Source of the DNA: a virus
IMG/VR virus record: IMGVR_UViG_3300044946_000125
Span: 1-24,476 of that record
Direction: 5' to 3' (one strand)
DNA length: 24,476 bases
Shown one piece after another: positions 5,708 through 22,317 of the stretch (its first letter is position 1; each line of letters starts with the position of its first letter). A model generated the notes under the pieces. It worked only from the letters and a program-made list of their open reading frames with translations. It was not told where the DNA came from and ran no database searches. The translations under genes were made by a program, and so were the position numbers.

Positions 5708-5940
5708 CGCGCTGCCTCTGGCCCTCGTGCCGGCATCTTGCGGCCCGCCTCGTGTACTGCCATGCGCATTACGAGGCGCTTGGGCCGGATCTGCAGCGCC
5801 GGCTCAAGGCCGCCCAGGGGACCGAAGAATGGGTGGCGGCGCTCGAGGCCTGCCAGCACCATGCGAAGGCGACGATCGAGTGGGTTCGAAAAACATTCCA
5901 TGGAGGTGAGAATGCTCATTCTGACGCGAAGGCCCGGTGA
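5704..5940 (+). CDS. Small zinc-finger-like phage protein
   Basis: A 78-residue protein from ATG 5704, overlapping the previous stop as ATGA. The N-terminus carries CLWPSC (residues 4-9) and YCHAHY (18-23), a C-x4-C ... C-x2-H pattern that recurs in short phage proteins and should bind zinc. The remainder is helical ([20 protein letters not shown] and on). Its last nine codons run over the ribosome site and start of csrA in another frame, so translation of this gene could modulate csrA initiation. Function unknown. Confidence 0.7.
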
Positions 5941-6100
5941 GGTGATTAAGATCGGCGATACGATCGAGGTCACGGTGATCCAGGTGAACGGCAACCAGGT
6001 GCGGATCGGCGTGAAGGCGCCGCGCGAGGTCCAGGTCGACCGCGAGGAGATCGCGCAGCGGCGGATCGATAATCCCGATTGGAGAAAGGCGGGCCCGTGA
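5912..6100 (+). CDS. csrA: CsrA/RsmA-type RNA-binding translational regulator, phage-encoded
   Basis: A 62-residue protein from ATG 5912 with a strong GGAGGTGAG ribosome site at 5902-5910. It aligns along its length with Csr[21 protein letters not shown], then [20 protein letters not shown]. The RNA-contacting Leu4/Arg6 region (LTRR) and the Arg44-type REEI segment are kept, so it should dimerise and bind GGA motifs in mRNA leaders. In hosts CsrA controls carbon flux, motility, biofilm and virulence. A phage copy next to xis/int could retune host metabolism or regulate phage mRNAs. Its own ribosome site holds GGA, which allows autorepression. The family call is firm; the role in the phage is inference. 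Confidence 0.95.
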
Positions 6101-6252: not shown

Positions 6253-6614
6253 TCGAGTCCTTGGGCTTGAAGGCCGCCGCCGCGTTCTTAAAGATCCACC
6301 CGGACACCCTCGCCGAGCGCGCCCGAAAAGGGGTTATTCCCGGTGCTAAGATCGGCCGCGCGTGGGTCTTTTTGCCCCATCTCCTACAACAATACGTCGA
6401 GGGGCAATGCCGCTCTACCGTCGCAAAGCCGAGGGACCCTGGTGGATACGAATCTCGGTCGCTGGCCACAAGATTAGGAAATCTTCGGGCACGACGGATC
6501 GCGAGGCTGCAAAGGAGTTCGAGCGCGTCGAGTTCGAGCGCGCCTACCGAGAGCGAAAGCTCGGTGACCGTTCTGCAATTCCCTGGCGCGAAGCGGCCGC
6601 GCGCTGGCTCCTAG
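6249..6614 (+). CDS. xis: Excisionase-like HTH DNA-binding protein
   Basis: A 121-residue protein from ATG 6249 (ATGA overlap with the previous stop). The N-terminal about 50 residues (LGLKAAAAFLKIHPDTLAER, then ARKGVIPGAKIGRAWVFLPH) form a winged HTH of the excisionase/MerR type, which binds DNA beside the attachment site and can steer recombination towards excision. The C-terminal half from about residue 53 overlaps the integrase gene in another frame for 208 bp. It is low complexity (RSSSASSSSAPTESESS), so the folded part is only the N-terminal domain. Adjacency to int supports a recombination directionality factor; a transcription regulator is the alternative. Confidence 0.7.
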   Translation: MIESLGLKAAAAFLKIHPDTLAERARKGVIPGAKIGRAWVFLPHLLQQYVEGQCRSTVAKPRDPGGYESRSLATRLGNLRARRIARLQRSSSASSSSAPTESESSVTVLQFPGAKRPRAGS

Positions 6615-7447
6615 AGACCAGGAAGCGCACCAAGTCGAAGGATGAGTACATGCTCGCCTGGTTCGGCGGGTACCTCGACAATGAGCCCCTCTCCGGGATC
6701 GATCGCGAGACGATCGAGGATCTGCGCGAGGCGCTCCTCGAGGAGGGCTCCTCCGAGTCGAACGTCGATCGCTACATGGCGCTCCTGCGCGCGATCCTCC
6801 GTAAGGCGCGCGATGAGTGGCGCTGGCTCAACAACATCCCGAAGGTGCCGATGTACGGCAAGGACGAGCTCGAGCCGCGCTGGCTCACGCGCGTCGAGTT
6901 CGAGCGCCTGAAGCGCGAGCTCCCGCCGCACCAAAAGCTCGCCGCAGAATTCGCGGTCCTCACCGGCCTTCGCATGCGCGCCCAGCTCGGGCTCACCTGG
7001 GACCGCGTCGACCTCCGCCGCCGGCGCGCATGGGTGCCCTCCTCGAGCATGAAGGGGAAGGCGACGTTCGGCTTCCCGCTCTCGGCCGCGGCGGTCAAGG
7101 TGTTGAAGCGCGCTCGAGCCGCATCACCGGAAGGCGCGCACGTGTTTCAGTACGAGGGCGCACCGATCGATGACTGCAACACGGCGGCGTTTGAGAAGGC
7201 CGCTGCGCGCGCAGGACTCGAGGGGATCAACTGGCACACCTTCCGACACACCTTCGCCTCCTGGGCGCTGCAGAACGGTGTGACGCTGCACGAGCTCATG
7301 CAGCTCGGTGGCTGGAAGAGCTACCAGATGGTCTTGAAGTACGCCCACCTCGCGCCCGATCACCTGTCAAAAGCGGCCGAGTTGGTAGCACAAAAAGGGC
7401 ACACGGGGCGGCGGGGTGTTCCACGTGGAACGTCAAAAAAGCGTTAG
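6407..7447 (+). CDS. int: Phage tyrosine-recombinase integrase
   Basis: A 346-residue protein from ATG 6407 with GAGGGG just upstream. It is a typical phage integrase. The N-terminal arm-binding domain is about residues 1-50 (RRKAEGPWWIRISVAGHKIR), the core-binding SAM-like domain about 57-145, and the catalytic domain about 155-325. Catalytic residues seen: Arg189 in LTGLRMRAQLGL, a Lys in SSMKGKATFG (216/218), His277 and Arg280 in HTFRHTFASW, Trp303 in place of the second His (LGGWKSYQMV), and the nucleophile Tyr312 in KYAHL. It integrates the phage at a tRNA gene; the tRNA 3' fragment lies 7 bp past its stop. The last codons contain a 17-bp repeat and a parS-like palindrome. Confidence 0.96.
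   Translation: MPLYRRKAEGPWWIRISVAGHKIRKSSGTTDREAAKEFERVEFERAYRERKLGDRSAIPWREAAARWLLETRKRTKSKDEYMLAWFGGYLDNEPLSGIDRETIEDLREALLEEGSSESNVDRYMALLRAILRKARDEWRWLNNIPKVPMYGKDELEPRWLTRVEFERLKRELPPHQKLAAEFAVLTGLRMRAQLGLTWDRVDLRRRRAWVPSSSMKGKATFGFPLSAAAVKVLKRARAASPEGAHVFQYEGAPIDDCNTAAFEKAAARAGLEGINWHTFRHTFASWALQNGVTLHELMQLGGWKSYQMVLKYAHLAPDHLSKAAELVAQKGHTGRRGVPRGTSKKR
7388..7404 (+). repeat. 17-bp direct repeat, left copy (possible integrase arm site)
   Basis: GCACAAAAAGGGCACAC occurs here, within the last codons of int, and again identically at 7575-7591 on the other side of the tRNA fragment. Same-orientation copies flanking the core at about 80 and 107 bp are what integrase arm-type sites look like. 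The identity is seen directly; the binding role is inferred. Confidence 0.6.
7417..7432. promoter_or_regulatory. parS-like ParB-binding palindrome
   Basis: TGTTCCACGTGGAACG contains the perfect 14-bp palindrome GTTCCACGTGGAAC and differs at only the last base from TGTTCCACGTGGAACA, a chromosomal parS form of the TGTTNCACGTGNAACA class bound by host ParB. It lies in the last codons of int (reading V-P-R-G-T), 22 bp before the attachment core. No parA or parB gene is in the window. Function is inferred from the match alone. Confidence 0.5.
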
Positions 7448-7453
7448 AAAACA

Positions 7454-7499
7454 TGGTGGTGAGAGAGGGACTCGAACCCTCGACCTCGGCATTATGAGT
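7454..7499 (-). other. attP: attP core: 3' half of a tRNA gene with CAU anticodon
   Basis: Read on the minus strand this is the anticodon loop to CCA end of a tRNA: loop CTCATAA, stem arm TGCCG, variable loop AGGTC, T-stem/loop GAGGG-TTCGAGT-CCCTC, acceptor strand TCTCACC, A, CCA. The 5' half is absent: the sequence before the loop (CCGGA) does not pair with TGCCG, and no GGTGAGA acceptor strand exists upstream. Such 3' fragments are phage attachment cores that rebuild the host tRNA on integration. CAU with this loop fits elongator tRNA-Met, or the Ile2 type. It is not a functional tRNA gene here. Confidence 0.85.
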
Positions 7500-9777: not shown

Positions 9778-10770
9778 CTAGATCTGTGGGTAGACGAGAT
9801 TGATGTTGCCGGAGATGCCCTTCGCGCCCGAGGTGGTCCAGCCTGAGTAGTTCGGGGTGCTCCCAAGACCGAAGGTGAGAACGCCCGAGGTGTTGATCGA
9901 CACCCAGCCGGCTTGACCCGCGGTGCCGTTGTCCTCGACCAAACAGGGGAGCACCACGCCCAAGGTCAAGGGCGCCAGGCCATTCGCGCCGGTGGGGAGC
10001 CCGGTCATGGTGAAAGTGTTCGCGTTCGAGGTGCCGGTGTTCGCGGACGTGATGATCGAGACGACGCCGTCCTGCAGCTTGTAGGCGTAATTGAAGACAG
10101 GCGCGGTGCCGGAGAAGCCGGTACCGGTGAGCGTCCCGGTGCCCGAGATCGGCGCTTGCCCCATGCGCAGGTACCGCCCGGTCGCTGGGCTACTCGAGGG
10201 CTCGATGGTGTTCGCGCCGTCATCTGCCGCGCTCGAGGTCGCATTCCAGTAAAAGAGCCCGCCCAGGCCGTCGCTGATCGAGACCGCGCCCTCGACCGCG
10301 ACGATGAGCGTCTGCCCGGAGGCGAGCGTGGGCACGTTCGCGGCGCGGAGTGATGCGAAGACCGAGTAGCTTTTGACGGCGTTCGCGACCAGGTCCGCAC
10401 CGAACCCTGAGGCCGGGTTCGCAAGGTTCGACTGGATGGAGCCCGGCGCCCCCGGGTCATTGATGCCGGAGATGCCGAGGATCGACCAGGTCTCGCCGAG
10501 CGTGTCGACAAAGTACGCATCGATCGTGGTGCCCGAGGCGACCCAGAAGTTCGTGAACGCACCGCCCGAGCCTGCAGGGCGGCCGGCGCTGTTCAACGTC
10601 ATCGGGTTCGGGTTCGGGCCGCCGCCGCCCGCGGTCGAGTAGGTGGGCGCCAGAATCGACACCGATCCCGACACATAGGTCGTGATCACAGCGCCGCCGG
10701 CGATGACGCCCGCGTTCGTCAGCATCTGCACGAGCGCGGAGAGAATCGTCTGGTAATAGCTAGTTGCCAT
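9778..10770 (-). CDS. Tail appendage / receptor-binding protein
   Basis: A 330-residue protein from ATG 10770, overlapping the end of the ATP-grasp gene by 11 bp. The N-terminus (SYYQTILSALVQMLTNAGVI) leads to a stretch rich in G/S/T with GPNPNPMTLNSAGRPAGSGG, which resembles the head-binding N-terminal domains of podovirus tailspikes and fibres (the P-x-N-P-x-x-L-x-x-x-G-x-P pattern). The middle and C-terminal parts are beta-rich and low in charge (SGTGTLTGTGFSGTAPVFNY), like trimeric fibre shafts. No lyase or hydrolase motif is visible. Position between the ejection protein block and lysis genes fits a host-recognition protein. Confidence 0.62.
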   Translation of the reverse strand: MATSYYQTILSALVQMLTNAGVIAGGAVITTYVSGSVSILAPTYSTAGGGGPNPNPMTLNSAGRPAGSGGAFTNFWVASGTTIDAYFVDTLGETWSILGISGINDPGAPGSIQSNLANPASGFGADLVANAVKSYSVFASLRAANVPTLASGQTLIVAVEGAVSISDGLGGLFYWNATSSAADDGANTIEPSSSPATGRYLRMGQAPISGTGTLTGTGFSGTAPVFNYAYKLQDGVVSIITSANTGTSNANTFTMTGLPTGANGLAPLTLGVVLPCLVEDNGTAGQAGWVSINTSGVLTFGLGSTPNYSGWTTSGAKGISGNINLVYPQI

Positions 10771-12070
10771 ATTTGAACTCCGTCGCGTAGCCGTGCGCCT
10801 GGAGCTCGGTGAGCTCCTTCTCGAGCTTCTCGCCGATATCGTCGCGCCATCCAAGATCCGGGACGTGGACCTGGTCGACGGCCTTGTACATGCGATCGCA
10901 GGCCTGGCGCACGGTCTTGCCCGTGCCCGTCACCACCGCAACGTAGTCACCTGCGGTCGCCCACATCTTCTTGTCGACGATCTCCTCGCCCTTCATCGCC
11001 GGGAGCTTCGCCATCTTCACCGACTGCGGGTGCACGAACTTGCGCGCCGGCGTCTCGACGGTCACGGGGATGTCGATGAGCTCCTTGGGCTCGCGCGGTT
11101 CCAACTGCAGCACCACGCCCGCGGCGATCGAGTAGTCGACCTCGAGCGTGTCCTCGCCCTCATAGGCGTTCAGCATCCACTCGACCGGGTCGCCCTTGTG
11201 AGTGGCCCACATGATGTTGGCCGCCGGCCACCCCCAGCGCATGGTGAACTCGAGCGGCCAGGCCTTGCCCTTGTCATCGATCTTGCAATTGACGTCGACA
11301 TCGCCTAAGTGCCCGAGCTTGACGAGCTCGTCCTCGAGGGGGGCGAGCACCGTCTCGCCCAGCTTCGAGGCCTTCACGTACTTCATCACCGTGCCGGCCT
11401 CGCCGCAGTTCGGGCCGCAGTTGCCCGAGAGCTGCTTTTTAAATTCGAAGTTCTCGTTGTAATCGCCGATGAAGCCCTCTTTCCCCATCCAGCGCGAGAC
11501 TCCGAACTCGGGGCCTTCGATAAAAGTCTGCAGCATCACGGGGCCCTTGGGGTTTAGCCCCAAGCGCTTCCATCGCTGCAGCCGGGCAATCATATCGGCG
11601 GGGGATTTGCCGACGTAGGAGAGGCTTTTGTCCTCTTCTGAGCCCAAAGTTTTGAATACATAGCGGCCCGGCTTCTTGCGCACGTGCGCTTCCGCCTCAT
11701 CGAGCGACTTGAAGGTCTCGTAGGCCGGCACATCGATCCCGGCGCGCTTGAAGGCCTTCATGCCGTCCTCGCGCTTGATCTCGAGTGCAGCGCTTCGCGC
11801 GCTCGGAGCAAACACTGCCACGCCTCGCTTTCGCAGGGCGTCGAGCTTCGGCAAGAATTGATCGTTCCCGGTGAGGAGCACGAGATCGGCCCAGGAGCTC
11901 GCGGAGGCGACCCAGTTCTTGATGCGCTCGAGGCCTTTGAAGCCTTCGCCGACAATCTGATTATTTTCCGGGCGGAGGAAGTAGCGCACTTTGTGCCCCG
12001 CCTTGAGACATGCCAGGGCAAAGGGCAGTCCACACCCTGCGTCCTCCATTTCCAGGAGCAGCACATTCAC
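10760..12070 (-). CDS. PurD-like ATP-grasp ligase
   Basis: A 436-residue protein from GTG 12070, overlapping the previous TGA (GTGA). The domain order is that of phosphoribosylamine-glycine ligase (PurD): an N-terminal Rossmann-like part (MNVLLLEMEDAGCG; DLVLLTGNDQ), a pre-ATP-grasp part (MKAFKRAGIDVPAYETFKSL), then the ATP-grasp core. The core shows the lysine strand RYVFKTLGS, the adenine-region glutamates QTFIEGPEFGVSRWM, a glycine-rich loop GPNCGEAGTV resembling PurD GPNTGGMG, and a metal-binding-type segment PLEFTMRWGWPAANI in place of EFNxRFGDPE. It may ligate an amino acid or nucleotide-linked acceptor rather than act in purine synthesis. Sitting in a virion operon is unusual. The fold call is good; the substrate is unknown. 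Confidence 0.72.
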   Translation of the reverse strand: MNVLLLEMEDAGCGLPFALACLKAGHKVRYFLRPENNQIVGEGFKGLERIKNWVASASSWADLVLLTGNDQFLPKLDALRKRGVAVFAPSARSAALEIKREDGMKAFKRAGIDVPAYETFKSLDEAEAHVRKKPGRYVFKTLGSEEDKSLSYVGKSPADMIARLQRWKRLGLNPKGPVMLQTFIEGPEFGVSRWMGKEGFIGDYNENFEFKKQLSGNCGPNCGEAGTVMKYVKASKLGETVLAPLEDELVKLGHLGDVDVNCKIDDKGKAWPLEFTMRWGWPAANIMWATHKGDPVEWMLNAYEGEDTLEVDYSIAAGVVLQLEPREPKELIDIPVTVETPARKFVHPQSVKMAKLPAMKGEEIVDKKMWATAGDYVAVVTGTGKTVRQACDRMYKAVDQVHVPDLGWRDDIGEKLEKELTELQAHGYATEFKYGN

Positions 12071-14442
12071 TGCCTATCGCCTTGATAGGTCGGCGGAGTC
12101 TTGATGACGCCCGAGCGCTGCAGGCGCCGAAGCTCGGCGTCGGTGGCCTGGGCGCCGGCGCGCTCGGCCGCGCTCGTGGCGGTCTCGCCGGCGGTGCGCA
12201 CCGCGGCGCCCTTCTCGACCTGCTTTGCGCCCATCTCGGCTAAGTGCACGAGCGGCCCGCCGCCCACGTTCTTGACCAGGCTCCCGAAGCCCGTGTCGTC
12301 CATCCAGTTCAAGATCTTCTGGAAGGTGTTGGAGCCCACATTGCGCACCGTGGGCTCGGTCTTCGTGATCTGCGCGGCCTCGCGGATCTTCAGAAGGTCG
12401 GCCGTCGCGCGCTTGCCCCACACGACGTTCAACTTCTCGATCCCGCCCTCGAGGGTCCCGTCCTGGCCGATGCCCTTCACCCAGTTGTTGATCGATTCGG
12501 CGGTGATGTTGGGATCGCCGCGCTCGTTGGTCGAGACGTTCTTCGTGATCTCATCCAAGAGGTTCTGCGCAGTCGAGGCGCGCAGCGTCCGCAGCGCTCG
12601 CTTGCCCTCGAGGCGGGTCGCGGCATCGCGTCCGGAGAGGAGCGTGCGCTTGACGGTCCGCACATCCTCGAGGCTCGCGTTCTTCACCGACACCTTCCAC
12701 ACATCCTCGAGCGCGGTCTTGGGATCCGAGCCGAACTTGCCGCCCTTGGTCTCGACTAAGCGCGCGATCGCGCCCTGGTTCGCAAACTCGCCGCGCTCGG
12801 CCGCGTGCGCCTGGCGTGCGGCCTTCCACTTATCCGCCGAGGCCGGCAGTCCCTCATCGAACATCTTGTCGATGACGCCTAAGACCTTGCCCGCGTAGTG
12901 CGCAGAATCGCCGGTGCCGCCGGCGCGCTCGCCCGCGAGCTTACGAAGGTCATCGAGCTCGATGGCGCTGATCGGCCGGCGGTCGCCGATCGGCTCGCCA
13001 TCGGGCCCGAGCTTCTCGATGCCGGCGCGATTCAACCAAGAGCGGAGCCACCCGATGTGCTGCGTCATCGGGTTCAAGACGTCGGGCTCGCCCTTGACGA
13101 ATTCGTACATCGGATCCGCGGCGACCTTGGCCTCGGGGTCGGTCTTGCGCGCCTCCTCATACGCCGCCTTCGTGCGCGCCTTCGCCTGGCGCTGCAGTTT
13201 CGTGACCGCGCCCGGCGCTTCTTTGCTCGTGCCGGAGATCACCTCGCCCGCCTTCTCACCGCGCACGGCGCCGGCGCGTGACTGTCCCACACCCTTCAAT
13301 CGATCGATGAGGACCTCGACGTTTCTTCGTAGGTCTCGGTTTGCTTGAACGTCAATATCGCGGATGGGTTGTCCGGATGGGGTAGCTGCAGCTCCCTGCT
13401 CACGCAGTAGCTGCGCCGGATCTCGGTTGAGCTTGCCCGCGGTTGTTTTAATGGGGACCCTGAGCGACTCCAAAGTGGCCTGACGTTTGACGGCCTCGGG
13501 ATTGAGCTTGTCGAGTGCGCGAGCATCGGCCGCGATGCGCTCGAGCTTCGCCTTCGTAGCACTGCCCAGAGCATCCCAGCTAAGACCAAGCCGATCACGT
13601 ACATAGGCCTGCGCCCTCGCGGTTGCAGAGACGTTGATGGTGGGCTGAGGCGGCAGCGGTCCTTCGCCGATCGTCGACGGCGCGGCTCGAGGCGCCGCAG
13701 TCGTTGAGAGCGGCGCTGGAGCAGGAGCGGCCGCCGTCGCGGGAGCACCAGGCTCCGCTGTCATCGGAGGACGCGCGGCACCCGGTGCGACCTCGAGCGG
13801 CGCGGCCGCGGCCGGCGCCTCGATCGCTCGGCCAGGAAGCTTCGCGAGCTCACCGCCCGCGACGGTTGCAAGCGCAGTCGGTGCGGCAGCGGTCGCGGCC
13901 CCGTACGCGGCGGCGACTTGCTCCTTGTGTCGATCGATGAAGTCGACCACCGATTGCGGCGCGCCCAATCCCTTCGCAACCTCGGCCGCCTTGTCGCCCG
14001 CGGCGCGAATCGCATCGTGCGCCTGCTGGCCCTGCTTGAGGCTCCAGTCCTCGAACGCCTTCAAGCCCTTCGAAACATCCGCCATCACTGCCTTGCCGCG
14101 CTCGGTCTGCGGTGTCCAGGTGAGCGCGTGCTCGAGGCGCGCGGCCGCCTCGCTCGCATCTCCTGGGTCGTGCCCCGTGAGAGCCGTCTCAACGGCCTCG
14201 CGTCCGTAGCCGGTCGCTTTCACGATGCCGCCGGCGAGCGATGCAATGCCGCCGGTGACCGCGGCCGCGCCGATGTCCGCATCCTCGGCAAGTGATGCAC
14301 TCTGCGGTTTGGGTGCTGTCGGAGCCTTCGGCGCGCCGCGGCTCGCGATCACGCGCTTGACGGTCGCCTGCACCACCGAGGGATCGGTGCCATCGGGAAA
14401 CTCGAGCGTCCCGATGCCCTCGACTTGTGCCTGCACGCTCAC
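12067..14442 (-). CDS. DNA ejection protein, P22 gp16-like position
   Basis: A 791-residue protein from GTG 14442 (GTGA overlap). Its first 30 residues (GTLEFPDGTDPSVVQATVKR) match the short PDG-type N-terminal motif often found at the start of phage internal virion proteins. Next come an alanine/glycine-rich hydrophobic region (AAAVTGGIASLAGGI), long helices, a proline/alanine linker (about 205-270), and a long charged helical body. No lytic transglycosylase motif is obvious. It is the third and largest of three consecutive genes in the P22 gp7-gp20-gp16 order, so it probably enters the cell with DNA to form a channel across the envelope. The role comes from order and composition; no direct homology is claimed. 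Confidence 0.6.
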   Translation of the reverse strand: MSVQAQVEGIGTLEFPDGTDPSVVQATVKRVIASRGAPKAPTAPKPQSASLAEDADIGAAAVTGGIASLAGGIVKATGYGREAVETALTGHDPGDASEAAARLEHALTWTPQTERGKAVMADVSKGLKAFEDWSLKQGQQAHDAIRAAGDKAAEVAKGLGAPQSVVDFIDRHKEQVAAAYGAATAAAPTALATVAGGELAKLPGRAIEAPAAAAPLEVAPGAARPPMTAEPGAPATAAAPAPAPLSTTAAPRAAPSTIGEGPLPPQPTINVSATARAQAYVRDRLGLSWDALGSATKAKLERIAADARALDKLNPEAVKRQATLESLRVPIKTTAGKLNRDPAQLLREQGAAATPSGQPIRDIDVQANRDLRRNVEVLIDRLKGVGQSRAGAVRGEKAGEVISGTSKEAPGAVTKLQRQAKARTKAAYEEARKTDPEAKVAADPMYEFVKGEPDVLNPMTQHIGWLRSWLNRAGIEKLGPDGEPIGDRRPISAIELDDLRKLAGERAGGTGDSAHYAGKVLGVIDKMFDEGLPASADKWKAARQAHAAERGEFANQGAIARLVETKGGKFGSDPKTALEDVWKVSVKNASLEDVRTVKRTLLSGRDAATRLEGKRALRTLRASTAQNLLDEITKNVSTNERGDPNITAESINNWVKGIGQDGTLEGGIEKLNVVWGKRATADLLKIREAAQITKTEPTVRNVGSNTFQKILNWMDDTGFGSLVKNVGGGPLVHLAEMGAKQVEKGAAVRTAGETATSAAERAGAQATDAELRRLQRSGVIKTPPTYQGDRQ

Positions 14443-16013
14443 GAGATGGGATTGCCCTGGGCGTCAAACTTGAGCACGGTGCCTGCGCCGGCGGGCGGCG
14501 TCACGGCCGCAGGACCACCGGCGGGCGGTGCGCCTCGCCCGGGTGTGCCGGTCAATGAGGCCGGGCCAGGAGGGGGCGCGGGCGTCGGTGTCTGGCCCGA
14601 GATGAAGGCATCGTGCAGGCGCTGCTTCGCACTCGCCGGCGCCGCGAGACTCGCCTCGGTCTCTTGCTGGAAGCGATCGAGCACCGCGTTGTAGGTGCCT
14701 GAGTCCTGGGCCGCGTTCAAGAGCTCGTAGCCGTGCTCCTTGTCGGCGACGGTCGCGACGCCCTTCGGATTGATGGCGCGCGCCCAGGTGTTGATGACCG
14801 CCGTGGTCGCCGCTTTCAGGCTCGCGAGCTTCTTGTTCTCATCGCTCCCCTGCAGCTCCTTCGTCGCCCACTGATCGATCTTGTTCCAGCCCAGGGCGTG
14901 GGCGCGCTGGATCGCCGTGTCGTCGGAGGCGCCGCGCGCGTTCTGGATCATCTGCTGCGCTTCCGAGCTCGCCATCTCGACATTGGCCTGCTGCGTGCCG
15001 AGGGCCCGCTGCTCGGACACATAGCCCTGATACTCGGCGAGGCGCGCGGCCAGGTCCGCGGGCTTCATGCCGTTCTCTTTCGACACCTGCGCGATCGCGT
15101 GGCGCACCATGATGATGTTGGTCGGGCCCTGGGCGCCGCGCCCCAAGCCCGTGAGTACGGACTTGTCGCCGGCGACGTACTGCTCGGCGAGCGCGCGTGC
15201 ATCATCCTCGGTGAACTTGCCCTCGGCGGCGAGCTTCTGCTTCGCCGAGGCGAGCGCCTCCTGGTCCTTCAACTTTCGCTCCGCGATATCGGTGCCGGCC
15301 TCGCCCTTGGTGATTGCCGCCGTGGTCGCACGCTCGAGGCGGCCTTCGTTCGCCTCCTTCAATTTCAGCGCGATCGCCTCCTTCGCCTTCTGGCTGTTCA
15401 TCACGAGCGCGTTGACCGCGGCGGTGTTGTAGCCGTTGCCGAAGTCGCGCTTGATGGTCGCCTTGTCCTGATCGTTGAGGAGTGGCGAGCCGTCCGGAAG
15501 CTTCGCCTGGGCGAGCTGCGTCAAGGTCGAGATCACATCGTCCTTCATCGCATCGTGCGTCGCCTGCTCGAGCTGCTGCGGCGTCGCCTGCGGGTTCTTC
15601 TTTTGGAAGTCCGCGATCACCGCATCGTGCTTCTCTTTGAGTGAGTACACGGCCGAGCCGATCACATCGTTTTTCGCGGCGTAGAGCTTGAGCTGCTGCT
15701 CCTGCTCGGCGTACTTGTCCCCGCGCTGGGCGGAGAAGTCCCGCGCGAGCTGCATGCCCAATTGCGGCGAGCGCTTGGTGATCTCGGCGACCGCGGCGTT
15801 CTGATCCTCGAGCTTCGAGAGATCCTTATCCGCGAGGATCTGCTTGGCGTAGGTCATGTCCGACTGCGATTGCTTCGCCTCGGAGACCTTCATCTTGTTC
15901 AAGGTGTTGGTGTCGTAGAGATCGGCGAGCGTCAAGGCCTTGGCCTGGGCCCCGATCGGGTCCGGACCCATGCCGCCGATGTCGGAGATCGTCTGCGTGT
16001 CGAGAGTTGCCAT
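14439..16013 (-). CDS. DNA ejection protein, P22 gp20-like position
   Basis: A 524-residue, almost wholly helical protein from ATG 16013. It is rich in Ala, Gln, Lys and Asp (SEAKQSQSDMTYAKQILADK, LKLKEANEGRLERATTAAIT), with few aromatic residues, and ends in a proline/glycine-rich tail (about 480-524). This composition is typical of internal virion proteins that are ejected before DNA. It lies between the gp7-like and gp16-like genes. ATG 16013 follows the previous stop by 3 nt. No enzyme motif seen. Confidence 0.6.
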   Translation of the reverse strand: MATLDTQTISDIGGMGPDPIGAQAKALTLADLYDTNTLNKMKVSEAKQSQSDMTYAKQILADKDLSKLEDQNAAVAEITKRSPQLGMQLARDFSAQRGDKYAEQEQQLKLYAAKNDVIGSAVYSLKEKHDAVIADFQKKNPQATPQQLEQATHDAMKDDVISTLTQLAQAKLPDGSPLLNDQDKATIKRDFGNGYNTAAVNALVMNSQKAKEAIALKLKEANEGRLERATTAAITKGEAGTDIAERKLKDQEALASAKQKLAAEGKFTEDDARALAEQYVAGDKSVLTGLGRGAQGPTNIIMVRHAIAQVSKENGMKPADLAARLAEYQGYVSEQRALGTQQANVEMASSEAQQMIQNARGASDDTAIQRAHALGWNKIDQWATKELQGSDENKKLASLKAATTAVINTWARAINPKGVATVADKEHGYELLNAAQDSGTYNAVLDRFQQETEASLAAPASAKQRLHDAFISGQTPTPAPPPGPASLTGTPGRGAPPAGGPAAVTPPAGAGTVLKFDAQGNPIS

Positions 16014-16016
16014 GGT

Positions 16017-16757
16017 TTAAGGCCCCGCGTTCAAATCGGTGGGCGTGTAGTAGGTGCCCGGCGCGACCGCGCCCGGAGGCCCTGCATCGAGGCTCCCCCC
16101 ATAGTTGTAATAGGCCGCGGACGGGCCCCCGCCGCCGCCCGGGTTCGAGAGTCCCTGGAGCGCGTTGTAAGTGAGGTAGCTATTCGTCGCGCCCGAGCCC
16201 GCGCGCGTGATGCCGGCGATCTCGGAGGACTCGATGTTCGCAAGGTTCGTGCCCTGCGAGATCGTCTCGCCGGCGACGTTGGTTGCTGTCTGACCGATAT
16301 TCGCCGCGGTGCCGGCCGCGGCCGCCTGACCGATCTGCTCTTGCCCGAGTGCGTTGTTGATCGCCTGCTGATAGGTCGAGTCGCCCAACTGCGCACCGAA
16401 GCTCTCGACGCCCGCCACCTGGTTGCCCGAGAGATTCAAACCCGAGGCCGCGGCCGCGCGCTCGGCACCTTCGACGCCCTGGCCGTAAGTTGCCTGATAT
16501 CCGGGCGTGTTCTGCAGCGTCTGCTGCACCTGCTGAGGATTCGCCGAGGTGAGCGCGTTGTAGGTCTGGATCCCCGCCTGGCCCTGCTTCGTGTAGGGCG
16601 CAGCGAGCGCTTCCTGCTGCGTGAGCGCATTCTGCTGCTCGGTGACCGCGGCGTTGGTTGCGCTCTTCGTTGCATTCGCCGAGGTGTCGGCTGCATACAC
16701 CGTACCTGCGACGGTCGCGGCCGCACCGATGCCAATCGCCGTTGCTACGCCTGACAT
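16017..16757 (-). CDS. DNA ejection protein, gp7-like
   Basis: A 246-residue protein from ATG 16757 with AGGAG upstream, overlapping the end of the cupin-like gene by 13 bp. The N-terminus VATAIGIGAAATVAGTVYAA is a hydrophobic alanine/glycine segment. It is followed by an Asn/Thr/Gln-rich region with ALAAPYTKQGQAGIQTYNAL, then TPGYQATYGQGVEGAERAAA and ASGLNLSGNQ. The series APYxxxGxxAxxxxxxL, TPGYxxxxxxGxxxxxxxxAAxG, SGxxxxxxxxF is characteristic of phage gp7-like ejection/pilot proteins. It opens the gp7-gp20-gp16 block. Confidence 0.75.
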   Translation of the reverse strand: MSGVATAIGIGAAATVAGTVYAADTSANATKSATNAAVTEQQNALTQQEALAAPYTKQGQAGIQTYNALTSANPQQVQQTLQNTPGYQATYGQGVEGAERAAAASGLNLSGNQVAGVESFGAQLGDSTYQQAINNALGQEQIGQAAAAGTAANIGQTATNVAGETISQGTNLANIESSEIAGITRAGSGATNSYLTYNALQGLSNPGGGGGPSAAYYNYGGSLDAGPPGAVAPGTYYTPTDLNAGP

Positions 16758-17209
16758 AGAAGCTTCTCCTCGAGGACGCGGCCGCGCTCGATCAGCGCCT
16801 GGGCGGGTTCAAAGATATCGAGCTCGAGCGCCAGGGCGTCCTTCGACTCGGTCGGGTTGGGATGGCGCGTGTCCGCGATCACATCGGTCAAGGTGAAGGC
16901 GACCGCGTGAAAGCCGGGATCGGTGACGATGCCGGCCGGCGCATCGAAACGGCGCTTGCCCTGCGGTGCAATCAAAATCGCCGACCCCTTGACGAGGTGC
17001 ACCTCATGGCCGTGATTGTGCTTGCGGCCGAGAAAGAGCGTCGCGGCCGGGATGTGCATGCGGCGGATGTAAAAGCCCGGCTCGAAGCGGTGCTCGACCG
17101 GGCACTCGCGCTGCTCGAGCTTCGAGAACTGATAGGTGAGATACGCCACCTTCTCCGCCCAGGTCAGGCTCGAAGGCGCATCGTCCCAGGGCACGACAAT
17201 CACGTTCAC
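16745..17209 (-). CDS. Cupin-like phage protein
   Basis: A 154-residue protein from GTG 17209, overlapping the SET gene stop (GTGA). Residues 37-47 ECPVEHRFEPG, then IRRMHIPAATLFLGRKHNHG and HEVHLVKGSAILIAPQGKRR, are followed by an AGIVTDPGFHAVAFTLTD segment. These give the HxH...G and PG-x-H elements of a double-stranded beta-helix (cupin) fold. Short proteins with ECPVxHxFxPGxYxR are seen in podovirus and other phage operons. Metal binding through the His cluster is likely; catalysis is unknown. It sits between the SET protein and ejection proteins. Confidence 0.68.
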   Translation of the reverse strand: MNVIVVPWDDAPSSLTWAEKVAYLTYQFSKLEQRECPVEHRFEPGFYIRRMHIPAATLFLGRKHNHGHEVHLVKGSAILIAPQGKRRFDAPAGIVTDPGFHAVAFTLTDVIADTRHPNPTESKDALALELDIFEPAQALIERGRVLEEKLLCQA

Positions 17210-17658
17210 TTGCGCATCTCCCGAAACTTCTGAAAACACAAGATCTGCTCGAGCGAGCGGTTCAGCTTCTTGAGCTCCGCGAGCACCGGATCCGCTGCGG
17301 CGACATTGGTCGCGACCGCCTGTCGATAGTTGACCGTGATCTCATCGCCCGGCTCGAGCGCTCTTTCGGCGATCAGATAGATGTCGGGCCCGAATGCCTG
17401 CATCTTCGCGTTCGGGTCCCGCGCATGGTTGGCGTACCGCCCGGCCTGCGTGCGCATCCCCTGCAATCGCGCGGGCGCAATCAGCTGGCCGGCGGCAAAA
17501 GCGCGGGAGGCAAAGAGGCCGGTGCCCTCGATGAGTGAGGGCGCGGTGCGCCAGCCGTCCTCGGCGATCGTCACCTGGTCGGCGAGGTTCTCCGAGATCG
17601 CGCGCGCGGTCGCTTCGGTGACGCCCATCTCGGCCAGGAAGTCTTGATAGTCGCTCAT
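17206..17658 (-). CDS. SET-domain protein (putative protein-lysine methyltransferase)
   Basis: A 150-residue protein from ATG 17658 (ATGA overlap with the previous stop). It carries the ordered SET-domain hallmarks: EGTGLFASRAFAAGQLI (about 44-60, the GxG cofactor loop), RYANHARDPNAKMQA (about 74-88, the NHxxxPN motif), and ALEPGDEITVNYRQ (about 100-113, the GEEItxxY motif with the catalytic-type Tyr). This is a minimal SET core without pre/post-SET zinc domains. It would transfer a methyl group from AdoMet to a lysine of a virion or host protein. The helical ends are extra. The fold call is firm; the target is unknown. A SET enzyme inside a tail operon is uncommon. Confidence 0.85.
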   Translation of the reverse strand: MSDYQDFLAEMGVTEATARAISENLADQVTIAEDGWRTAPSLIEGTGLFASRAFAAGQLIAPARLQGMRTQAGRYANHARDPNAKMQAFGPDIYLIAERALEPGDEITVNYRQAVATNVAAADPVLAELKKLNRSLEQILCFQKFREMRK

Positions 17659-17993
17659 ACGGGTGTCCCTGCCGAATTCACCCACACGGTCGGGTTCAAG
17701 CTCTGCACCCAGATGGGGATCCCGAGCGACTCATCGAAGAACGGGTAGCCGATGAACAGGCCCGCCATCGGGCGATTCGCGGTCACATCGGCGCCGCCGA
17801 TCGTCTTCACCAGGTTGTAGTTCTGCGAGAGATAGGCGTTCCACACCGGGTGGATCACTGGCGCTGGCTTCGGTGCCACGGGCGCCGGCGCACGCCGCGT
17901 CGGATCAAAGGGCGGCGGCGTCTCGCGGATCGGTGCGAAGAAGGGCGCCGAGCTCGGCAAGGGACCTAAGAGCGGAGGCTTCGGGGCGGCCAT
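17655..17993 (-). CDS. Small virion protein with PIW...W tip motif
   Basis: A 112-residue protein from ATG 17993, whose last base is shared with the previous stop. The first half is proline rich (PKPPLLGPLPSSAPFFAPIR, then APAPVAPKPAPVIHPVWNAY). The C-terminus FFDESLGIPIWVQSLNPTVW, then VNSAGTPV, matches the LGxPIWxxxxxWVxxxG tip motif often seen at the ends of phage structural proteins. It occupies the slot after the gp10-like hub where P22 has the tail needle gp26, but it has no coiled coil and does not look like gp26. Confidence 0.55.
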   Translation of the reverse strand: MAAPKPPLLGPLPSSAPFFAPIRETPPPFDPTRRAPAPVAPKPAPVIHPVWNAYLSQNYNLVKTIGGADVTANRPMAGLFIGYPFFDESLGIPIWVQSLNPTVWVNSAGTPV

Positions 17994-19486
17994 CAGAAGG
18001 TCTCCGGCTTGCCCTTGCGCCGGATCGCCCCGTCGGTGATCACGAACTTCACCGGGTCGGTCATGCGAAAGCGAAAGGTGAAGACCCGCGACATGCCGAA
18101 GCGACGCACATTGACGCGCGTAACGAACTGCCCTTGCGCACCCAACGGGATGAGCCTCGCCTGGAGCCAGGTGCGCCCATTGTCCTTCGAGCACTCGACC
18201 GAGATCACCGGCGCCTGGCCCTGCACCGGGCTCGAGGTGTTGCCCGAAAGCCCGACGCCCGTCTCCATGTCGAGATAGAGCTGCGGGATCCGGAAGCGGT
18301 TGTAGCCGCGGGTCTGATGCTTGGTCACCACCTCGCGCAGGATCGGCACGGTGTTATCCGCGTAGGTGTTGTCGTCCATCCGATAGACGAAGCCGTTCAC
18401 ATAGTCGGTGAGGAGCGTGTCGCCGTTGTAGTAGCACGAGAGGTTCGCTGCGTGGCGCAAAAAGCCCCCGGTCGAGAGACCGGTCTGCGTCTCACCCCAG
18501 ATCCCGGTCGAACAGTCGTACAGGAACGAGCGATTCATCGTCGGGAAGGTGAGCTGCACGAAGGCGTGCACATCACGCTGATACGAGAGCATGGTCGCAT
18601 CGGCGTAGGTGAAGCCGGGCTGGTTCATGATGTAGTCGATCTCCTGCGAGATCGGCGTCACCGTGTAGCCATCGATGCGGCACACCCGGCGGGTCCCCGC
18701 GGCGCTTTGGGCGAGGAAGAAGAGCGCGTTGTCGGCCTGCGTGCGTGCGAACACCGCAGCCAAACCCCACTTGATCGGAGACGATTGAATGAGTTGGAAG
18801 GGTTGCGCCGGCGGCGGTGTGCCGACCGGTTGCCAGAACTCCAGGTGCTGCTGCGCGAAGAGGATTAGGTTGCCCATCAAGTTATCGACGGCCACCATGA
18901 TGTCGGGGTAGGCCGCGGCGGTCGCGATCGAGAGCGCATAGCCCGTCGTCGCATCGTTGATGTTGGAGGCCGCGAATTCGCCCGTGTTCGGCACTTCGGT
19001 GACGAAGTAGCCGCCGACATTCGTGCAGGTCTTAGCGCCCGGCGTGAACCAGGCGGCGCCGGCGCCCAGCTGCGTGAGTGTCTGCGCCTGCGTGTTGAAC
19101 ACCCACCCCGAGGAGCCGTCGACCAGGAAGATCTGCGAGACGGACGGATTCGCCGCGAGCGAGCAGAGGCCCTGGATCGTGCCGATGAAGCCTGAGAAGT
19201 TGACGCCTGCGGGATTGCCCACGACCGCGGGCGGTGAGAGCGATTGGAACTCGTTCGACACCACCGCATAGAGCGTTGAGTTGGTGGGACCTAAGATCGC
19301 GCGCACGGGTGTGTTCTGAGAGGAGCCGACCGAGAACACCTTCACGAGCCCGGGCGTCCCATAGACCACGACCTTCGCCTTGTCGCCGTCCGCGCGCTGC
19401 TCGTAATAGCAGTTGACGCGCCTCTGGCGGGTCACCACCGCGCTCTTCGCGTACACCCCAGCACCAAATAGTGGAACAGGTTGCAT
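17993..19486 (-). CDS. P22 gp10-like tail hub / packaged-DNA stabilisation protein
   Basis: A 497-residue protein from ATG 19486, close to the 472 residues of P22 gp10. It begins with a strand region containing TRQRRVNCYYEQRADGDKAK and VVYGTPGLVKVFSV, similar in layout to the family start (few residues, then the PVN-type motif, then a PG segment). It continues as a long series of beta strands: GFIGTIQGLCS, SQIFLVDGSSGWVFN, GNLILFAQQHLEFWQPVGTP. C-terminal segments ECSKDNGRTWLQARLIPLG and RFGMSRVFTFRFRMTDPVKF resemble the hub family end. In P22 gp10 hexamers close the portal channel below gp4. Placement after the gp4-like gene supports the call. Confidence 0.75.
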   Translation of the reverse strand: MQPVPLFGAGVYAKSAVVTRQRRVNCYYEQRADGDKAKVVVYGTPGLVKVFSVGSSQNTPVRAILGPTNSTLYAVVSNEFQSLSPPAVVGNPAGVNFSGFIGTIQGLCSLAANPSVSQIFLVDGSSGWVFNTQAQTLTQLGAGAAWFTPGAKTCTNVGGYFVTEVPNTGEFAASNINDATTGYALSIATAAAYPDIMVAVDNLMGNLILFAQQHLEFWQPVGTPPPAQPFQLIQSSPIKWGLAAVFARTQADNALFFLAQSAAGTRRVCRIDGYTVTPISQEIDYIMNQPGFTYADATMLSYQRDVHAFVQLTFPTMNRSFLYDCSTGIWGETQTGLSTGGFLRHAANLSCYYNGDTLLTDYVNGFVYRMDDNTYADNTVPILREVVTKHQTRGYNRFRIPQLYLDMETGVGLSGNTSSPVQGQAPVISVECSKDNGRTWLQARLIPLGAQGQFVTRVNVRRFGMSRVFTFRFRMTDPVKFVITDGAIRRKGKPETF

Positions 19487-19489
19487 AGC

Positions 19490-20545
19490 CTAGTAGTTCT
19501 GATCGTCGTCTTCGGGTTGAAAGTACTGCGCGGTCACCTGGGGGTTTCCCTCGCGCGCCTGCGAGGTCGCGAGCAAATAGTTGCTCTTCCGATCCTCCGT
19601 CCAGTCGCCATCGAACATCGAGCAGACCGGGAGCGCGAGACTCCACACCAGGTGCCAGAACCACTCCTGCGGGTACTCGGGCGCATCGAGCGGATTCACG
19701 AAGTCCATCGACTCGCGCAAGAAGACCGCGTGGATGCCCTTGGTCACGTCCTGGGCGCCGGCGCAATCGGTGTAAAGGTGCCCTTGATTGCCGATCATGC
19801 GCGCCTCGTAGTACCAGGCGGTCGGGTCGGCGACGTTGGTCGGCATGGTCTTGGTCGGCAGCGCCTCGTACTGCTCGAGCGTCATCTCGGTGAGCGGTGT
19901 GTCGTTGAAGGTGATATCGCGCAGAAGCGCGGTGAGCACCTTCATCGGCCGCTGCGCAGGCGTCGTGTAGTTCCACACATAGTTGGTGGAGTTGGCATAG
20001 CTGCCTGAGGGCAGGCCCGTCGCCATCGTGACCTGGCCCGTGAGCGTGTTCACCGAGGAGACGGTCGACCAGAAGATATCGGTCACGCCCGAGGCGAGCG
20101 TCACCTGCACACCGATGTAGTCGTTCACATTGACCGCGGTCGTGTTGCCGATGCCGACCTGGAGCACGTTGCCGCCGGCGTTGACCGCGGTGACGAGCTG
20201 GTTCTGCTGATAGAGGTTCGGGTACGGCAAGCCCGTCACCCCGCCCGCCCAGTTGTCGGTCGAAGTGCCGCCCAGCTGATAGACGTACTTCGAGGCGCCC
20301 AAGAAGAGATGCCCGCGGTAGCGCTGCCACATCTTGAAGCCGGGGGCCTTGTCCAACTGCCCCGCGAGCTGCTTCGTGATCATGTTCAAGACCGCCGCGC
20401 AGTCGACGATCTCCTGTGCGGTCGGCACTTCGGAAGGCTCCAGGATCCCGTTCACCAGCATGGCGGCGCGAATGATCTGGTCGCGATACACCGAGAAGGT
20501 GAACGAGCCCGAGGGAACAAACGGCAGCGGGTAGGTGATGGACAC
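19490..20545 (-). CDS. P22 gp4-like head-tail adaptor, with inserted beta domain
   Basis: A 351-residue protein from GTG 20545, 2 nt after the previous stop, with GAGG upstream. Residues about 18-65 (YRDQIIRAAMLVNGILEPSE, then QEIVDCAAVLNMITKQLAGQ) form the helical start of the gp4/adaptor family. The C-terminal part has RPMKVLTALLRDITFNDTPL, then MTLEQYEALPTKTMP, and LDAPEYPQEWFWHLVWSLAL, which are typical adaptor motifs. Between them (about 85-200) lies a beta-rich stretch making it twice the length of P22 gp4 (166 residues). It would sit under the portal. Order before the gp10-like gene supports the role. Confidence 0.65.
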   Translation of the reverse strand: MSITYPLPFVPSGSFTFSVYRDQIIRAAMLVNGILEPSEVPTAQEIVDCAAVLNMITKQLAGQLDKAPGFKMWQRYRGHLFLGASKYVYQLGGTSTDNWAGGVTGLPYPNLYQQNQLVTAVNAGGNVLQVGIGNTTAVNVNDYIGVQVTLASGVTDIFWSTVSSVNTLTGQVTMATGLPSGSYANSTNYVWNYTTPAQRPMKVLTALLRDITFNDTPLTEMTLEQYEALPTKTMPTNVADPTAWYYEARMIGNQGHLYTDCAGAQDVTKGIHAVFLRESMDFVNPLDAPEYPQEWFWHLVWSLALPVCSMFDGDWTEDRKSNYLLATSQAREGNPQVTAQYFQPEDDDQNY

Positions 20546-20547
20546 TG

Positions 20548-22317
20548 CTAAGCCTCGATCGCGCTCTTCTCGATCACTTCGGCGGGATTTCGGATGTGCT
20601 CAGGGAGTGTCGCGCGCACCCGCATGAGCTCCTCGGGCGAGAGCTGCACGAGGCCGGGCGGCGGGAGACCATCACGCTTCGCGTACTCCTCGAGACGCCA
20701 CTGCACGACGTGCCAGAGCACCTTGTAGGCATCCTGCGGGCCGATGTCCCACTGACACTGCGACACCCCGGCACCGTTCCTTTTGCCCCCGATGCGCTTG
20801 TAGAGCTCCTCCGTCTCCGCGGCCGCCGGCGCCTCGGTGCAGCGATCCCAGCCGTAGTGCATCTGGTGACAGGCCGGCGCCTCATCGTTCCCGCGGCCCT
20901 TGCACACGGTCCCCACGCTCGCGAGCGAGTGGGTGTTGACCCAGTGCTTGGTCAAGTTCTCCTGGGATGAGTGCGACAGGAAGATCACCTTCGGCATCTC
21001 CTCCATCGCCATGGCGTTGAGCACCCCGGTCTCGGGCCCCACGATCACATCGCACTCTTGAGCCAAGGCGAGTGAGTCGCGGATCGAGTACTTGCCCGAT
21101 CGGCAGTGCGCGCGCGGGGTCTCCTCCCAGCCCTTCTCGAGGATCACGCCGTCCTCACCGCCCACGAACACCACCGACACCTCGGGGAAGTCGACCAGGA
21201 GCCCGGACACGGCGTTGTCGACGAAGGGCCAGATCTTGTGCACCGATGAGCCGGTGAGCGCCCAGAGCACGAGGAAGGAGCCGAGCGCCTTCTTCTCGAG
21301 CTTCGCCCACTTTTTCTCGGCCTCGGTTGCGTAGAAGTGGATCCGGTGCGGCGCATCCGGCACGCCCGCGATCAAGTGCTGGCGATCGACGTAGTTCCAA
21401 TTGAGGATCTCGTGCCGCGCGGCCGGTGAGTAGGTATCGACGGGCCGGCCCGCCATCGAGAGAAGGCCGCCCTCGACGGACTCGGAGAGGTTCACCCACT
21501 TGTCGAACTTTTTCTTGTGGTGCTCCCAGAAGGAGCCGAGCGCCTGGTCGGGGACCTGGCCGCGCCCTTGGATGTAGAACTCATCAATGTGCGGGTCGTG
21601 CTCGATCGAGTCATACCCCGGGCCTTCGGCGCAGTAGAGCGTGATGTGATAGCCCTGCTCTTTGAGCGCGGCGAATACCGAGGCCGCCTGCATCGAGTCG
21701 CCGATCGCGCCGTAGCGCACGACGCCGCAGGTCTTGCCGATCGGCCGCGGGCGATCGTGGTGGAAGAAGCGCGGGGTCTCGAGCGTCTTCTTGAACACGA
21801 AGAAGAGCGAGTACTCGATGCCCTCGCTCCGTTTCTGATAGTCCATCAGATCGAAGGGGACCTTGGCCGCGTGCATGACCTTCATGAGGCCGTTGAAGGT
21901 CACGTTCCACTTGTGATCGGGGTTCGCGCCCTCCTCGCCCACCTTCGGATACTCATCCGCATCGGGCAGATAGAGCACCATGTAGCCGCCGACCTTGACC
22001 ACCCGCCACCACTCGCGCAGGCACTTCACGAGCTTGTCCTCCTCGATGTGCTCTAGCAAATGGGATGAAAAAACGAAGTCCATCTGCTCATCGGCCAGGA
22101 TCGAAAGGTCTGCCGCGTGCTGCACGAAGAGATCGGGCCGCACCATCTGCTGGCCGAAGAGCAGCGCATCGACGTTGTTGTCGACGGTGATGAAGTGCGG
22201 GAAGGTGCGCGAGTTCCCGGCGCCGATGTCGAGGCCCTTGCCCCGCGTCCACTTGACGATCTCCCAGGAGATCTTCGCCGATTCGTTGCCCTGTGGGCCG
22301 TCTTTTGTCCAAGTCAC
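20548..22317 (-). CDS. Methyltransferase-glycosyltransferase (GT9-like) fusion
   Basis: A 589-residue two-enzyme protein from GTG 22317, behind AAGAGGGGA. Residues about 25-180 are a class I AdoMet methyltransferase: motif I GLDIGAGN (28-35), an acidic VDN after strand 2 (45-47), SSHLLEHI (84-91) and WRVVKVGGYMVLYLPD (104-119). Residues about 195-470 resemble heptosyltransferase family GT9: VVRYGAIGDSMQAASVFAAL (199-218) as the acceptor-side glycine loop and VGPETGVLNAMAMEEMPKVI (426-445) as the sugar-nucleotide site. A Cys-rich tail follows (CKGRGNDEAPACH, WDRC, CQWDIGPQDAY). It might modify host LPS or a virion component. An intergenic hairpin precedes it, and it is framed by virion genes. 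Both folds are clear; acceptor and donor are unknown. Confidence 0.82.
   Translation of the reverse strand: MTWTKDGPQGNESAKISWEIVKWTRGKGLDIGAGNSRTFPHFITVDNNVDALLFGQQMVRPDLFVQHAADLSILADEQMDFVFSSHLLEHIEEDKLVKCLREWWRVVKVGGYMVLYLPDADEYPKVGEEGANPDHKWNVTFNGLMKVMHAAKVPFDLMDYQKRSEGIEYSLFFVFKKTLETPRFFHHDRPRPIGKTCGVVRYGAIGDSMQAASVFAALKEQGYHITLYCAEGPGYDSIEHDPHIDEFYIQGRGQVPDQALGSFWEHHKKKFDKWVNLSESVEGGLLSMAGRPVDTYSPAARHEILNWNYVDRQHLIAGVPDAPHRIHFYATEAEKKWAKLEKKALGSFLVLWALTGSSVHKIWPFVDNAVSGLLVDFPEVSVVFVGGEDGVILEKGWEETPRAHCRSGKYSIRDSLALAQECDVIVGPETGVLNAMAMEEMPKVIFLSHSSQENLTKHWVNTHSLASVGTVCKGRGNDEAPACHQMHYGWDRCTEAPAAAETEELYKRIGGKRNGAGVSQCQWDIGPQDAYKVLWHVVQWRLEEYAKRDGLPPPGLVQLSPEELMRVRATLPEHIRNPAEVIEKSAIEA

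Follow-up and report, generated by a model that had tools for sequence, protein, structure and literature searches.

PurD, the glycinamide ribonucleotide (GAR) synthetase (EC 6.3.4.13; TIGR00877, PF01071 plus PF02843), is the reference for the enzyme described here. Its natural acceptor is a sugar amine, and its GGREHA loop is presumed to hold this phosphorylated sugar amine (phosphoribosylamine). For Aquifex PurD, published modelling assigned K103, K143, E185, E192 and K214 to ATP, D212, R287 and E292 to glycine, and E100 and K214 to Mg; according to the same study, a phosphoribosylamine-bound PurD structure is not known (PMC8880213). Two archaeal 'extra PurD-like' proteins, rrnAC0307 and Hlac_1553, are reported to lack the RFGDPE Asp and to diverge in their N-terminal loop, and were therefore judged not to be GAR synthetases (PMC3261824). 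In short-tailed phages, ATP-grasp enzymes are described from LUZ24-like podoviruses, such as UFV-P2 ORF28, a protein of 291 aa encoded in an early module together with an amidoligase, a COOH-NH2 ligase and a GATase (PMC3890496).

Here we describe a PurD-like ligase gene in IMG/VR virus record IMGVR_UViG_3300044946_000125, of which positions 1 to 24,476 (24,476 nt) were analysed and are called the window. The ligase is a real and conserved enzyme that defines a phage lineage; it descends from PurD and has a new pocket. It shares an ATP-grasp fold and a short-tailed phage setting with UFV-P2 ORF28, but differs from it, as far as published descriptions allow the comparison, in length and in its place among virion genes. 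In the literature searched, of which coverage was partial, we found no paper on this phage gene.

The ligase gene and its PurD fold

A preliminary description of the window, made from its letters alone, had read a PurD-like protein at 10760-12070, between ejection and tail appendage genes and away from nucleotide metabolism. The open reading frame proved real, but its strand had to be corrected to minus, as stops interrupt the plus strand across this interval, and the gene order bears out its placement among structural genes:

9778..10770, minus strand: tail-appendage-type gene directly downstream of the ligase, no family match; its likely ATG start at 10770 overlaps the ligase end
10760..12070, minus strand: PurD-like ATP-grasp ligase, 436 aa, GTG start
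12067..14442, minus strand: third ejection-type protein, 791 aa, assigned purely from gene order, without a Pfam or PHROG match; its stop codon and the ligase start share 4 bases (GTGA)
14439..16013, minus strand: second ejection-type protein, 524 aa, assigned by gene order, no family match
16017..16757, minus strand: DNA ejection protein, gp7-like (phrog_598, E 1.9e-17)
16745..17239, minus strand: cupin-like protein (phrog_12032, 'short tail fiber protein'); cupin called by eye, no Pfam match
17206..17685, minus strand: SET-domain protein (PF00856, E 1.7e-9)
17993..19486, minus strand: head closure Hc3 / P22 gp10-like stabilisation protein (phrog_578, E 4.8e-75)
19490..20545, minus strand: tail-adaptor-type gene upstream of Hc3 (phrog_12985, unknown function), assigned by synteny with annotated MW202796
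20548..22317, minus strand: methyltransferase with a glycosyltransferase-9-like C-terminal part, a core gene of the lineage; the GT9 match is weak and found in relatives only

The PurD layout that had been claimed for the protein was confirmed at the level of both sequence and fold. Homology to PurD is beyond chance (TIGR00877, E 1.9e-18; PDB PurD 2xcl, E 8.4e-19), and the solved proteins nearest by sequence are PurD/GAR synthetases. The structure model (pLDDT 94.8, pTM 0.92, 44 sequences in the alignment) has PurD 2yw2 as its best solved match (Z 36.3, 395 residues aligned), and Foldseek combined with VIA-align ranked 13 entries for PurD at the top (VIA Z 31-36, up to 396 residues), ahead of PurT and PurK with Z about 25, while the RimK-type fold, with which a comparison had been proposed, was not among the 50 structural entries listed. 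Because PurD entries lead over the full alignment, the fold is that of PurD from end to end, the C-domain with its RxDIG motif included, with other ATP-grasp families further away. Within the ATP-grasp superfamily, the ligase originates from the PurD branch.

Descent from PurD is not membership. Against TIGR00877, the NCBIfam PurD equivalog with a cut-off of 288 bits, the ligase scores 66.5 bits and its phage-type relatives 65-110 bits, and the Pfam matches (GARS_C, 31.1 bits; GARS_A, 20.6 bits) both lie under the curated cut-offs. A PHROGs search gave no match for the window ligase and, among ten relatives, one weak match (E 0.14). Judged by its sequence, the ligase is a PurD-type ATP-grasp protein that would not be a GAR synthetase.

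Conserved ATP-site residues and a replaced substrate pocket

To locate the differences from PurD, 128 relatives (87 phage or prophage and 41 cellular) were compared with eight reference PurDs; the Aquifex residue numbers of PMC8880213 agree with the chain numbering in the sequence alignment to solved PurDs. The window equivalents of the Aquifex ATP residues are R100, K140, Q181, E188 and K211, those of the glycine residues E209, R278 and A283, and that of the Mg residue E100 is E97. Invariant in relatives and PurDs alike are E97, K140, E188, K211, E274 and R278, whereas all 128 relatives differ from the eight PurDs by K to R100, E to Q181, D to E209, G to E224, A/S/V to T227 and N to T276. The position of PurD D290 is occupied by W, Y, H, F or S (W in 83/87 phage and Y in 35/41 cellular sequences), and that of E292 mostly by A or T and, among the residues tallied, by none that is acidic. 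Six pocket positions are fixed to non-PurD residues and two more never match PurD; the replacement signature is common to 128/128 relatives and found in 0/8 reference PurDs. Two segments carry several of these changes:

11390..11416, minus strand: loop GPNCGEAGT (residues 219-227), in place of PurD GPNTGGMGA; E224 and T227 invariant in 128/128 relatives
11222..11254, minus strand: segment LEFTMRWGWPA (residues 273-283), in place of PurD IEFNxRFGDPE; E274 (metal Glu) and R278 kept, Asn to Thr, Asp to Trp, Glu to Ala

The shifted glycine loop GPNCGEAGTV noted in the preliminary description is present at residues 219-228, as is the segment EFTMRWGWPAANI (residues 274-286) in which a changed metal site had been seen. 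The latter wording holds only in part: the metal Glu E274 remains, next to an Asn to Thr change, and the larger change lies in the glycine-binding D-P-E part. Instead of the PS00184 motif R[LF]GDPEx with its glycine-binding Glu, the ligase has RWGWPAA (D to W, E to A), and in place of the N-domain loop GxGGREHA it has EMEDAGCGLPFA, with no GR or EH. The archaeal rrnAC0307 and Hlac_1553 resemble the ligase in these two losses, a likeness drawn from their published description and not from sequence.

The ATP- and metal-binding residues of an ATP-grasp enzyme, by contrast, are all kept or conservatively changed, the latter rating applying to K to R100, E to Q181 and N to T276. Loss of ATP-site residues, named beforehand as the observation that would speak against a ligase, was checked and not seen in any of the 128 relatives. 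Read from these residues, the ligase would keep the ATP chemistry and carboxylate activation of PurD and would have lost the recognition of glycine and phosphoribosylamine. With GDPE, GGMG and GGREHA gone and the carboxylate pocket rebuilt, the pair that it joins is probably not glycine and phosphoribosylamine.

A phage lineage and its cellular sister clade

Relatives of the ligase are encoded in 372 IMG/VR stretches, and many phage contigs share the protein with 37-87% identity. In INPHARED a single clear relative was found, MW202796 (39% identity), which is also the only one with a ligase among the 40 INPHARED records with Hc3 relatives. Matches at 21-24% identity in INPHARED (H2-H6, fecal and Staphylococcus 'phage' records) are possibly bacterial purD genes in unannotated records. 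GTDB genomes yielded 83 relatives, among them phage-type loci in Paraburkholderia, Glaciimonas, Rhodanobacteraceae and others, several of which lie beside Hc3 and ejection genes. A tree built by a quick method, with SH-aLRT supports and no bootstrap, splits phage (96), cellular (98) and PurD (100) sequences, the phage and cellular groups being sister clades.

The cellular clade is about 30% identical to the phage ligase and is spread over bacteria and archaea (Acidobacteriota, Gemmatimonadota, Woeseiaceae, Planctomycetota, Nitrososphaerota, DPANN and Patescibacteria). Its members share R100, Q181, E209, E224, T227 and T276 and the pattern GE(M)GT ... LEFTxRxG(Y/W)P with the phage ligase, but in most of them Tyr takes the place of Trp where PurD has Asp, and they are mostly lone genes. 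In a few cases DAP epimerase, a PGM1/BesA-like amino-acid ligase or a protein methyltransferase (PCMT, PRMT-like) is encoded nearby, and in Moranbacteria-type genomes (L173, L174, L170) a diaminopimelate-epimerase-family gene directly follows the paralogue; these isolated cases are too few to fix a substrate, and the neighbours were rejected as a functional clue.

In 9/12 genomes the cellular paralogue (90-125 bits) occurs together with a full PurD (404-583 bits), and 6/7 bacterial genomes with a phage-type gene have their own host PurD. As PurD coexists in most genomes of both clades, neither clade substitutes for it. This bears on the reading of the gene as an ordinary divergent PurD, an auxiliary metabolic gene that raises purine synthesis during infection. 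The closest fold and profile are indeed those of PurD over the whole length, C-domain included, but the three PurD motifs are lost, the pocket positions are fixed otherwise, the gene sits in a virion module in hosts that already own PurD, 12 phage records, mostly of about genome size, contain no PurM/AIRS, no other purine genes were found in the phages checked, and the archaeal PurD-like proteins were excluded as GAR synthetases on two of these changes in a 2011 curation of archaeal purine genes (PMC3261824). Ordinary purine synthesis is an unlikely role for the ligase, and on profile score, lost motifs, host PurD and missing PurM we rejected the auxiliary metabolic purD, to which we give hardly any credence.

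What emerges is a large, coherent group of PurD-related enzymes with a changed substrate site and with no PHROG and no NCBIfam model above cut-off; the catalogues searched miss it or would mislabel its members as purD. The existence of the cellular clade suggests that many uncultured bacteria and archaea perform a so far unrecognised ligase reaction.

Within the phages, the position of the gene is conserved as well. Across 77 phage loci the ligase typically lies after the ejection-type block and before the tail-appendage-type gene, gene order around it is identical in 35/35 loci, with the ligase directly after the third ejection-type gene, and its start overlaps the preceding stop by 4 bases in 52/73 loci. 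When loci were found through Hc3 and only those with at least 7.5 kb downstream were counted (n=33), the ligase was present in 31/33. One exception, L250, carries the ligase elsewhere on the same contig (L027); in the other, L219, it is truly absent and the third ejection-type gene abuts the appendage gene, so that the ligase is not strictly required. Since the Hc3 alignment was seeded from ligase-bearing phages, and some loci come from shared contigs, these counts describe fixation within one lineage and not in all P22-like phages. In this lineage the ligase is nearly fixed in the virion module, and with a dN/dS of about 0.01-0.17 it is under purifying selection.

A catalytically idle ATP-grasp protein with a structural or assembly role in the ejection module would also suit the constant gene order and the conserved overlap of stop and start with an ejection-type gene. 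Idle descendants of enzymes, however, usually drift at their ATP and metal ligands, and here these ligands are invariant in 128/128 relatives, the non-viral clade included, which makes an idle protein very improbable.

Candidate substrates of the ligase

The neighbourhood of the gene offers a direction for its target. Between Hc3 and gp7, 94/105 loci have an Asp/Asn beta-hydroxylase (PF05118) and/or a GNAT protein, or a cupin-like and/or a SET protein. These form two interchangeable cassettes, hydroxylase with GNAT or cupin-like with SET, the window (16745-17685) having the latter; among the relatives noted for this interval are L027, L014, L029 and L073. Protein side chains are frequent substrates of hydroxylase, GNAT and SET families; the cassette genes are probable side-chain modifiers, and a protein is for this reason the favoured guess for the ligase target. 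The preliminary description had proposed a ligase acting on a virion protein or on phage DNA, and of these the protein has gained circumstantial backing from the hydroxylase, GNAT, SET and methyltransferase neighbours.

The DNA part of that proposal found no such backing. Production of a modified nucleotide or modification of phage DNA would suit the nucleotide-related ancestry of PurD, and ATP-grasp and amidoligase genes are known in phages (PMC3890496). Against it, the gene lies among virion and not replication genes, and Pfam surveys of the window fragment and two near-complete relatives, which detect described families only, showed none of the known hypermodification genes (e.g. HMdU kinase, pyrophosphorylase-type transferases). 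We consider this reading highly improbable.

On the available evidence we lean, at somewhat better than even, towards a PurD-derived ATP-grasp carboxylate-amine ligase with changed substrates that attaches a carboxylate to a late-module product, preferably a virion or ejection protein. The chemistry is likely an ATP-dependent amide-type ligation. Expression of the ligase would probably be late and coupled, at translation, to that of the last ejection-type protein. Mg-ATP would be bound via R100, K140, E188 and K211, E97 and E274 would sit at the metals, and R278 would hold the carboxylate in a pocket rebuilt by D to E209, G to E224 and GDPE to GWPA and without the GGREHA loop of the N-domain. 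As in PurD, an acyl phosphate would form and the acyl group would then pass to an amine. An amino acid or similar carboxylate would most likely be attached to the late-module product, with a virion or ejection protein as the preferred candidate. A virion-protein target would have to be weighed against two points: the modifier cassettes may be independent cargo, a shared neighbourhood being no proof of a shared target, and the cellular clade has no virion, so that the original substrate may have been something other than a virion protein.

A sugar acceptor deserves attention as well. The ligase might acylate a sugar amine or decorate a glycan, the product being an amidated sugar on the virion, the host surface or a nucleotide sugar. 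The acceptor of PurD itself fits this, as does the methyltransferase domain in core gene 20548-22317, a methyltransferase/GT9-like fusion that is near-universal in the lineage just upstream of the tail-adaptor-type gene and in which Glyco_transf_9 is matched weakly, under the Pfam cut-off, in 5/23 records. In Pfam searches of 22 records, six had SIS_2 and nine CTP_transf_like; in five (G013, G017, G018, G035 and G041) the two genes are separated by 1-3 kb, a pair that suggests a phage-borne heptose-like nucleotide-sugar pathway. The core gene together with this pair in some members keeps a sugar acceptor possible, but most records are without SIS_2 and CTP_transf_like, in G017 the two are some 12 kb away from the ligase, and the loop with which PurD presumably binds the sugar phosphate is missing. 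On balance we regard a sugar or glycan acceptor as improbable, if conceivable.

Returning to the protein target, a near-fixed gene in the virion module suggests that short-tailed phages may chemically modify injected or structural proteins. As a wider and tentative proposal, which we rate well short of even, the lineage might use the PurD-derived ligase together with the interchangeable hydroxylase plus GNAT or cupin plus SET cassettes to modify ejection or virion proteins covalently before packaging, and the cellular sister clade might be an unrecognised amino-acid or peptide ligase across bacteria and archaea. The role of the ligase is experimentally accessible, since cultured Paraburkholderia lysogens, such as P. 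tropica LMG 22274 and P. phenoliruptrix LMG 22037, carry the gene.

The window phage is probably temperate: within 6362-7478, a tyrosine integrase gene ends beside a tRNA 3'-end-like sequence on the minus strand, from the CAT anticodon arm to CCA, which is a probable attachment site. At 5738-6100, a CsrA-family regulator is encoded (PF02599, E 1.2e-21).
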